From Prochlorococcus marinus XMU1408 (GTDB lineage: Bacteria > Cyanobacteriota > Cyanobacteriia > PCC-6307 > Cyanobiaceae), in NCBI RefSeq assembly GCF_003208055.1, contig NZ_QJUE01000005.1:62001-126000 (forward strand): 64,000 bases of DNA, written 5' to 3'. This document shows, one piece after another, positions 594 through 9,276 of the stretch. The position numbers were made by a program, and so were the translations under genes. Numbering within the stretch: position 1 is the first letter of the stretch; every line of letters starts with the position of its first letter. The notes under the pieces were generated by a model that saw only the letters and a list, made by a program, of their open reading frames with translations, was not told the origin of the DNA and searched no databases.

Positions 594-815
594 ATGAAAA
601 CACCTTTATCTAAAGGTGTCATGGATAGGTATTTTTTGACTATTCAACAGGTCTCGACCTCGATCGGATTATCACGTTCAACAATTAATAGAGAAAAACC
701 AAAAGGTGCCTTTCCACCAAGATAAAAAATCTCACAACGCAGAGTTGGATACTAGAAAGATTAAGTTGTTATGTGGATGGAAGGTAATTGGTCTAAGGGA
801 GTTAAATTGTCATGA
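594..815 (+). pseudogene. AlpA-like excisionase/regulator, nonsense-disrupted
   Basis: One frame from ATG 594 to TGA 813-815 reads as a 73-codon AlpA-type winged-helix protein. Its core is LTIQQVSTSIGLSRSTINRE, followed by GAFPPR, KISQRRVGY and VVMWMEG in the family order. It is broken by three in-frame stops: TAA at 723, TAG at 753 and TAA at 762. No frameshift is needed to follow the family from end to end. The terminal TGA overlaps the ATG of the integrase fragment at 812 (ATGA), which indicates an ancestral alpA-int operon. AlpA proteins act in excision or regulation of prophages and islands. A working gene would need stop suppression, so I call it a pseudogene. Confidence 0.65.
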
Positions 816-985
816 CTCTCTCCAACGCAAAGATCAAAACAAGAAAACCATCAGAGAAAAGGCAACTAATTCCGATGGATGGAAAAGATCTTTATTTAAT
901 AGTCGAAAAATATCCTCTTAATTCAAAAAGATTTGAGGGGAGAATGAACTTCCCTAGAACAAGTTATTGGAAAACAAAAGACTGA
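812..985 (+). pseudogene. P4-type tyrosine integrase, N-terminal fragment
   Basis: This 57-codon frame starts MTLSNAKIKTRKPSEKRQ and continues MDGKDLYLIVEKYP, NSKRFEGRMNFPR. That is the arrangement of the N-terminal arm-binding domain (DUF4102-type) of P4-like integrases: LTDxxIxxxKPxxK, DGxGLYLxV, then a basic strand. A full integrase is about 400 aa. The core-binding and catalytic R-H-R-Y domains are absent, so this is a relic. It follows the alpA pseudogene with a 4-base overlap. Confidence 0.6.
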
Positions 986-2164: not shown

Positions 2165-2526
2165 GATAAAATTTTAAACATAGTAAATATAGTTTGCATA
2201 GTCTAAGTTTTGGTAAAACTTAATAAAATATTATTTATCCAGGTAAACTGCATCTTAAAATCTTGCCAAATCAAGCAATAAACTAGGGAAGAAATGAAAG
2301 AAGTGTTATTGCTAAAAGAAAACTTCTATTATTCTCATCTAATAAAATCTGTTGGATTTAAATATATTTTATTCCTAGAAACTAATTCTAGTGCATGAAA
2401 TTTCATCGAGTTTTGTGGCATCATCTTTTAACTAGTTAGTTAGTTAATTTTTCGTTAAAGTCGCTAGAAAGTTTCACTTTATGGCACTTACTGTCAACTC
2501 ATGGCAACCCATTTCGTCATAGAAAG
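2165..2526. other. Gene-free stretch
   Basis: The 362 bases between the membrane protein start and tRNA-Ser show no credible gene, structured RNA or repeat beyond a short TTAGTTAG run near 2440. Confidence 0.5.
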
Positions 2527-2613
2527 CGGAGAGGGTGGGATTCGAACCCACGGATAGTTTTACCTATCAAACGATTTCGAGTCGTTCGCTTTCGACCACT
2601 CAGCCACCTCTCC
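2527..2613 (-). tRNA. tRNA-Ser(CGA)
   Basis: The minus strand folds as an 87-nt class II tRNA. The acceptor stem pairs GGAGAGG with CCTCTCC and the discriminator is G. The D arm has GGCTGAGTGGTCGAAAGC, the anticodon loop CTCGAAA gives CGA, a long variable arm follows, and the T loop is GGTTCGAATCC. CCA is not encoded. tRNA genes are common integration sites, and a decayed integrase lies about 1.5 kb to the left. Confidence 0.95.
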
Positions 2614-8661: not shown

Positions 8662-9276
8662 ATGGACTTAACACCGACAGAGGTGGTTGAACTGGCGAAC
8701 ATCAGCCTTAACAACGAAGTCACCAAAGGCCTGGTCCCGGCTCAGGTTGAGTATGTTAAAGAGTCAGTAGTAGAAATAAATGAAGAGCTAAGCTGTGTAG
8801 GCCAATCACTTAGAGCTGTCGCAGCCAATCTCTCAGACATCAAAGACAACATTAAGCCTGGTAACTGGAGGGCTTTCCTGAAATCAGGAGCGATAAATTG
8901 CTCAGAGAGATTTGCGGTTGATCTTGTCAGCGCATACACAAACTGGCTAGGAGGGGCAGATATTGACGATAACCTTCTCGCATCTCTGACACCTAGATCT
9001 CTAGCCCTAATGGGAAGCAAAGGAGTAACCGATAAAGAGAGACAAAGGGTTTTTCAGGCGGTTGAAAGTGGCGAAAGAATGACTGAAGCTACAGTCAGAG
9101 AAATTGTCAAAGGTACCAAGAAAAAAGCAAGAGTCTACTCTCAAAAAACTGAAAGCGAAAAGGTCAAGTTACTTAAAGAAAAAATTGAAATTTATAAAAA
9201 ATTAATAAATAACCTTCAAGACGAAAACACAAAGCTAACCAAGCTATTATCGAATAGAGAAAAATTTATAACCTAA
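8662..9276 (+). CDS. Hypothetical DUF3102-like protein heading an orphan operon
   Basis: 204 aa from ATG 8662; the frame is open back to a TTG at 8611, but that would place the start 3 bp after the SOS box. The middle (NWRAFLKSGAINCSERFAVD) resembles the 'grow in place, helix-turn-helix' region of DUF3102/phage-type DNA-binding proteins. The C-terminus, from about residue 140, is basic (KGTKKKARVYSQK) followed by a coiled coil (KLLKEKIEIYKKLINNLQDE). A DNA-binding role is an inference. It heads a run of small genes on the same strand. Its N-terminal two-thirds looks less AT-rich than its neighbours, which may mean a different origin. Confidence 0.65.
   Translation: MDLTPTEVVELANISLNNEVTKGLVPAQVEYVKESVVEINEELSCVGQSLRAVAANLSDIKDNIKPGNWRAFLKSGAINCSERFAVDLVSAYTNWLGGADIDDNLLASLTPRSLALMGSKGVTDKERQRVFQAVESGERMTEATVREIVKGTKKKARVYSQKTESEKVKLLKEKIEIYKKLINNLQDENTKLTKLLSNREKFIT

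Follow-up and report, generated by a model that had tools for sequence, protein, structure and literature searches.

An alpA pseudogene with three in-frame stops

What kind of mobile element left a broken alpA-integrase pair beside a tRNA-Ser gene in Prochlorococcus marinus XMU1408, and how much of it survives? The window analysed here is a stretch of 64,000 nucleotides of this genome (1.795 Mb, 32.7% G+C), and positions are counted from its first letter. A first-pass annotation, made from the sequence alone, had described at 594-985 an alpA relic read end to end through three stops and joined to the N-terminus of a P4-type integrase. The observation of a decayed pair is confirmed. Positions 594-815 (+ strand) form a single 73-codon AlpA frame, a pseudogene of an excisionase or regulator that is interrupted by TAA at 723-725, TAG at 753-755 and TAA at 762-764 (codons 44, 54 and 57). 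With X placed at the stops, the read-through translation matches Pfam Phage_AlpA (PF05930) with an E value of 4.8e-7 and 30 bits, over a cut-off of 21, and PHROGs groups it with phage excisionases (phrog_66, E 1.3e-8). In a six-frame search of its own genome it is the sole AlpA match at E <= 0.001, with one TAG and two TAA inside; with its three in-frame stops, 594-815 is not an intact AlpA frame.

The relic is 38-47% identical to four intact AlpAs of 72-73 amino acids. We carried out the comparison with intact homologues that had been proposed and found that all nine columns invariant among eight intact AlpAs are preserved, as are 15 of the 19 columns invariant in the four closest, the other four being altered. 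Since the invariant columns are mostly kept, the decay of alpA is not deep. The first-pass annotation had found it curious that three stops arose without an indel. We simulated decay with AT-biased substitutions on two intact alpA genes, at assumed indel/substitution ratios of 0.1 to 0.02. Three stops were reached after a median of 40-42 substitutions, and the chance of zero indels by then was 0.06 to 0.45. Three stops without an indel are not improbable in 219 bp; the pattern is unremarkable and needs no special cause.

A fragmented integrase gene in the same operon

The final TGA of alpA (813-815) overlaps the ATG of the integrase frame (812-814) as ATGA at 812-815, just as had been annotated. 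From this start codon on, the relic is homologous to the tyrosine integrases of four genomes, G066, G078, G109 and G194. Its first piece (812-976, + strand; residues 1-56) is an open frame that is 46% identical to the integrase of locus L066 from residue 1 (tblastn E 9e-10 in a 4-kb search); it matches L065 at a tblastn E of 3.6e-8 and a profile of nine integrases at 31.0 bits (i-E 4e-11). The second piece (976-1056, + strand; about residues 210-240) lies in another frame, beyond a deletion of about 150 codons. Here the nine-integrase profile matches at i-E 3.8e-4 over 925-1056, a broader profile at 0.026, and tblastn gives E values of 0.023-0.039 to L065-L067 and L072. The third piece (1300-1353, + strand; about residues 348-368) surrounds the HxxR box and gives weak matches: E 4.8e-4 to L067, with 71% identity over 14 amino acids (1303-1344, about residues 352-368), E 0.003-0.004 to L065, L066 and L072, and i-E values of 0.024 and 0.46 with the nine-integrase and the broader profile. 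Pieces 2 and 3 are weak individually and become credible because they stand in the right order and direction. The earlier statement that no indel had occurred holds for alpA and fails for the integrase, which has lost about 150 codons after 976.

The complete catalytic set of a tyrosine integrase comprises R, K, HxxR and Y. In the relic the HxxR piece reads HSWK, its arginine lost, and neither the C-terminal tyrosine piece nor most of the catalytic domain was found by tblastn or profile search; the complete set of the G066/G078/G109/G194 integrase family is not present. A match of 812-985 to DUF4102, the older name of Arm-DNA-bind_3, had been expected and did not materialize: the 57-amino-acid ORF has no Pfam match at E <= 1, Arm-DNA-bind_3 included. 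The four closest intact integrases fail in the same way (no Arm-DNA-bind_3 in any of them at E <= 0.01), as do the integrases of G023 and G034, and the domain is present in that of G018.

The state of the integrase also bears on whether alpA could still be alive, with readthrough or recoding of its stops as part of a functioning switch. The lack of any frameshift in 73 codons and the retention of the nine columns shared by the eight AlpAs would fit such a gene. Against it, four of the 19 columns of the closest AlpAs have changed, neutral decay yields three stops without an indel at the probabilities given above, and a partner integrase without some 150 codons and the HxxR arginine leaves little to switch. 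Because the integrase is broken we reject recoding, to which we attach almost no credence.

An ORF at 1238-1525 was considered as a gene and set aside as probably spurious, since it runs across integrase piece 3 in a different frame and takes in the att copy; it has no family match over the cut-offs of Pfam or PHROGs. Elsewhere in its own genome, the relic's integrase alignment has no match at E <= 1e-10. The sole Phage_integrase match of this genome at E <= 0.001 is a 390-amino-acid open frame (G000:C2:247592-248008).

Intact relatives of the operon

AlpA matches were found in eight of 60 genomes searched, seven of the eight belonging to the window's genus (the window's own genome counted in each figure). 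A query alignment built from three alpA-linked integrases found a match in 62 of 300 genomes of the family. Among these 62, four genomes, all of other genera than the window's, have intact alpA-integrase operons with an AlpA close to the relic's: G066 and three named relatives, Prochlorococcus sp. AG-363-O06 (G078), AG-363-N20 (G109) and AG-412-P08 (G194). The ATGA stop/start overlap recurs in all four (in G078 with an internal ATG of the longest ORF). As in the window, the operon of G078, G194 and G066 belongs to the tRNA-Ser(CGA) island and reads toward the tRNA, with a futA-like frame, recognized by eye, beyond the tRNA; the short contig of G109 holds no tRNA. The elements of G078 and G194 extend about 6.1 and 7.2 kb from tRNA to att.

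Like the relic, these four elements have an AlpA of 72-73 residues, the ATGA overlap, the same integrase family and the same promoter region; att copies are present in 4/4, and the tRNA-Ser(CGA) and the orientation agree in the three in which the tRNA was found. They differ from the relic in that alpA and the integrase are intact and other genes are carried, whereas the relic is broken and has lost its cargo.

AlpA together with a P4-type integrase is typical of P4-like satellites, and the relic could, with its PHROGs placement among phage excisionases, be the integration module of a P4-like phage satellite or prophage and not of a cargo-carrying genomic island. We checked eight of the proteins of intact relatives, the window's own cargo being gone, against PHROGs (seven from inside the G078, G194 and G109 elements, one from beyond the att of G078). 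None fell in a structural or packaging family; four matched nothing, one an unknown family, one a DNA invertase/integrase and two exonuclease-like families. Among viral contigs, none of 147 pattern-matched stretches encoded a relative of the integrase alignment. We consider a satellite or prophage origin improbable.

Across the wider family, 28 of the best 30 loci contain an integrase ORF 300 or more residues long. The fetched stretch contains tRNA-Ser(CGA) in 19 of these 28 and another tRNA in none. Those 19 integrases are encoded downstream of the tRNA and point away from it, an arrangement that is the commoner one and the opposite of that in the window. One site in G018 (G018:C2:33479-34735; L026, L032) has an intact 427-amino-acid integrase with Arm-DNA-bind_3, 176 bp from tRNA-Ser(CGA) and reading away. 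In G023 and G034 an intact integrase comes immediately after alpA and overlaps it by one base (in G034 with an internal ATG as start). These belong to a related alpA-integrase clade with that overlap (L007 in G023, L009 in G034, L060 in G083 and L061 in G271), in which no tRNA was found within the fetched stretches of 12-17 kb. A small serine recombinase of 193 amino acids lies inside intact-operon islands at L091 5172-5750 and G066:C1:690380-690961, its Resolvase domain confirmed for L091 and recognized by eye for G066. Two further loci have an alpA. L002/L011 (G011:C1) combines an alpA of another type, a sulfotransferase-like gene (by eye) and an att copy at this same tRNA-Ser; three integrase queries had no match there. 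At tRNA-Ser(GCT) in L015 (6713-8750; G013:C8) a weak 3'-end copy at 8731-8750 (85%, E 0.94) and an alpA match at about 8344 possibly follow a similar pattern.

Target tRNA, att copies and control region

The tRNA-Ser annotated about 1.5 kb to the right is a tRNA-Ser(CGA) at 2526-2613 (- strand; ARAGORN), 1.54 kb beyond 985, and its 3' end faces the island. The gene beyond it is iron-transporter-like; we take it to be futA. A search of the flanks for a tRNA-Ser duplicate, suggested in the first-pass annotation, returned two copies, a decayed one at 328-342 and another at 1470-1480. Both are on the tRNA's strand, so that a direct repeat of the tRNA 3' end lies at the far side of the element, and the relic measures about 1.15 kb between them. 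The nearer copy, GGACATCCACCCTCTCCT (1470-1487, - strand), forms the boundary between the alpA-integrase remnant and the next cassette. Its 11-base core (1470-1480) has one mismatch, and at that threshold the core has no match on either strand of a 117-kb control from the same genome.

The distal copy (328-342, core 329-339, - strand) reads GGATACCCTCTTGGT, where relatives have GGACACCCTCTCCG; it has three mismatches in 14 scored bases and aligns with the att copies of L090 and L092. At up to three mismatches, GGACACCCTCTCCG has no match in 234,602 strand-bases of same-genome control DNA, a motif that was picked after the relatives had been seen and of which three looser versions match the control 2, 3 and 16 times. 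The version with 16 control matches also has one opposite-strand match at -1139. From att core to alpA start there are 255 bases in the relic, 255 in G109 (L090), 268 in G078 (L092) and 289 in G194 (L091), and the att copy before alpA in these three relatives reads CACCCTCTCCG. G066 departs from this short spacing, since one has to go 6.5 kb past alpA to reach the nearest att copy, as against about 0.26 kb in the relic.

The region between att and alpA (329-593, + strand) also resembles that of the relatives. A TATAAT at 504-509 is kept in all five aligned sequences, the relic included, and is probably the alpA promoter. Between att and promoter, a direct repeat of 11-12 bases is visible by eye as two units in all but one of the four relatives; in the relic about one unit is missing, and the profile alignment shows an 11-base gap upstream of alpA. 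These repeats are presumably arm sites or AlpA sites. We built nhmmer profiles from the four intact relatives only, leaving the window out; composition-bias corrections were large. The profile of the upstream DNA matches 329-540 at E 2e-15 (bias 26.0 bits), and one spanning att, promoter, alpA and the integrase 5' end matches 329-964 at E 3.2e-53 (174.7 bits, bias correction 58.1), the next match within the 64 kb having an E of 1.9. A window-free profile that separates the locus from the next match to this degree excludes chance resemblance.

Between the nearer att copy and the tRNA lies a gene for a 173-amino-acid protein (1643-2164, - strand), a membrane protein by eye, with no Pfam match over its cut-off and a homologue within G027's tRNA-Ser island (L057, E 2.7e-12). 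Going outward from the tRNA, one meets this cassette first, then the att copy at 1470-1480, the remains of integrase and alpA and, farthest out, the decayed att copy at 328-342. As insertion is expected at the tRNA, the cassette nearest to it should be the younger. To the left of 328, five - strand genes (-3289 to 217; G000:C5:58711-62217) reach to a conserved gene of 223 amino acids. One of the five has a Pfam match (Ysc84); against the fetched loci at E 1e-4 one matches L051 and L052 and the other four match none. The empty sites of relatives have no room for these five genes.

Origin of the relic

We interpret 328-1480 as the remnant of an integrative element of the tRNA-Ser(CGA) 3' end, with a tyrosine integrase and an AlpA-type excisionase, which later received a cassette on its inward side; we put the probability of this reading at about 0.93. 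An old integrative element, perhaps of a tRNA-targeting type and marked by a dead alpA-integrase operon, is what the first-pass annotation had proposed, and the homologues, the operon overlap, the order and orientation of the parts, the target tRNA, the att copies and the empty sites of relatives bear this out. The relic is larger than the 594-985 first delimited and takes in the distal att copy, the promoter region and three ordered integrase fragments. Counting against the reading are the weakness of integrase pieces 2 and 3, the three mismatches among 14 bases of the att at 328-342, the large nhmmer bias, the distant att copy of G066, the lack of a tRNA on G109's short contig, the opposite orientation of the 19 integrases beside tRNA-Ser(CGA) among the 28 related ones, and four occupied sites of the genus with no att copy at the threshold used; the relatives compared are strains without an intact version of the window's own copy.

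An element of this kind would have been inserted at the tRNA-Ser(CGA) 3' end by its tyrosine integrase, and the small AlpA-type protein encoded in the same operon, as excisionase or activator, would have set the direction of the reaction. Judging from the intact layout in G078 and G194, its two limits would have been the tRNA and a short duplicate of the tRNA's 3' end, with alpA 268-289 bases inside the far end, the integrase reading back to the tRNA and cargo in the remainder. In the window the cargo would have been lost while the integrase became fragmented and alpA acquired its three stops; broken in both genes, the relic should be unable to excise. The att-bounded membrane-protein cassette (1481-2525) would have been inserted later, between relic and tRNA. 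The kind of element is already known; here it is well resolved, as a dead representative of a family that targets tRNA-Ser(CGA) and is controlled by AlpA.

Variation at tRNA-Ser(CGA) across the genus

A search with futA matched in 31 of 41 genus genomes; G019 and G031 were omitted because the futA match lies at a contig end, leaving 29 tRNA-Ser(CGA)-futA sites. We scored a site as empty when a conserved gene of 213-223 amino acids has its end no more than about 100 bp from the tRNA. By this measure nine sites are empty, 19 are occupied and one (L053), which has only 8 bases of island, was counted as neither, so that nine of the 28 assessable sites of relatives are empty. L050 was scored as empty at the tRNA despite two large genes elsewhere in the interval, and L052, the rest of G001, stands outside the site counts.

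We then counted the 11-base core CACCCTCTCCG by strand, which we preferred to a wide blastn search with the tRNA over 126 kb, too noisy by itself. At up to one mismatch, and excluding the tRNA itself, the 29 sites contain 26 copies on the tRNA's strand (14 of them exact) and none on the opposite strand; the control, 117 kb of the window's genome only, has none. Copies occur in 15 of the 19 occupied sites and in 0/9 empty ones; the occupied sites with no copy at the threshold used are L032, L049, L056 and L058. Counts are lower bounds for L051, L054-L058 and L016, which are partial or end with the contig. An additive island is marked by repeated copies of the tRNA 3' end at a single variable site, a pattern that is seen here. 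The loci L046 (G003:C6:32132-48008) and L016 (G016:C30) have five and four same-strand copies besides the tRNA. A block common to the two (2011-2733 in L016, 1021-1754 in L046, tRNA strand) is 91% identical and starts exactly at an att in both.

Might the site be an anchored gene-cassette array throughout the genus, in which visiting AlpA-controlled elements move cassettes in trans and then decay? Cassettes bounded by att, mostly without an integrase of their own, would pile up 3' of the tRNA, and the relic in the window would be the corpse of a driver inside an array it once served. In favour of this, an intact integrase was found in one of the 29 sites (G018; tblastn, three queries), against att copies in 15, and eight of 31 listed inter-strain blocks, such as those shared by L016 and L046 and by L037 and G194, have an end no more than 30 bp from an att copy in both strains. 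The other 23 do not; the listing is limited to blocks of 120 bases or more that lie clear of the tRNA and of the far 1.1 kb, and the att-end count has no chance control. We consider such an array unlikely, though less so than the satellite origin discussed above.

Relation to described elements

Is the element a tycheposon in the strict sense (Hackl et al. 2023)? Tycheposons are given as 4-200 kb in length and as using seven tRNAs in Prochlorococcus (as cited in PMC10872708). By description only, they resemble the relic's family in their host, tRNA-adjacent position, tyrosine recombinase and variable cargo; the relic differs in spanning only about 1.15 kb from one att copy to the other. A tRNA target, a tyrosine recombinase and variable tRNA-adjacent cargo in named Prochlorococcus relatives speak for membership, as do the lengths of the G078 and G194 elements, which fall inside the range quoted in PMC10872708. 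On the other side, a picocyanobacterial integrase is described in PMC10187409 as distinct from the tycheposon ones, so tRNA-linked integrases are of several kinds. Membership in the strict sense is possible, at somewhat less than even odds.

The element of PMC10187409, as described there, is defined by its integrase and is found in marine picocyanobacteria near tRNA-Phe or tRNA-Cys, often near a small serine recombinase. Like the relic's family it combines a tyrosine integrase near a tRNA with a Prochlorococcus/Synechococcus host and a small serine recombinase, as seen in G066 and G194; other tRNAs and an atypical domain structure set it apart, on the description and not on sequence. The accumulation of copies has parallels too. 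Recurring tRNA-Lys 3'-end repeats are reported from additive flexible genomic islands of 'Ca. Methylopumilus' (PMC10872708), which share with the tRNA-Ser(CGA) site several tRNA 3'-end copies and a variable island size; they differ in tRNA and organism, and the passages available from that paper tie no integrase or AlpA to the repeats. A tRNA-Met island of Prochlorococcus MIT9313 likewise has several partial tRNA and putative att copies at one variable site (PMC2784084); it differs in its tRNA, its degraded transposases and its role as proposed target of the siphovirus P-SS2, and the corresponding passages mention no AlpA. The same source describes, in Synechococcus RS9917, an island bounded by tRNA-Ser that contains remnant prophage genes, and additive islands with a tRNA 3'-end duplicate are known from Alteromonas (PMC5217437). 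Among the titles and abstract openings listed, none described the tRNA-Ser(CGA) alpA-integrase family, a search that leaves most subscription journals uncovered and is not proof that the family is unpublished.

The anatomy of this family and the strand-polar att array at its target are more interesting than the relic. End, promoter, excisionase and target can now be placed for a family of small elements that varies genomes at one tRNA, and the 11-base signature on the tRNA strand allows dead and integrase-less insertions to be counted. A single relic is ordinary; within the array, it has a bearing on gene acquisition by the small genomes of oceanic cyanobacteria.
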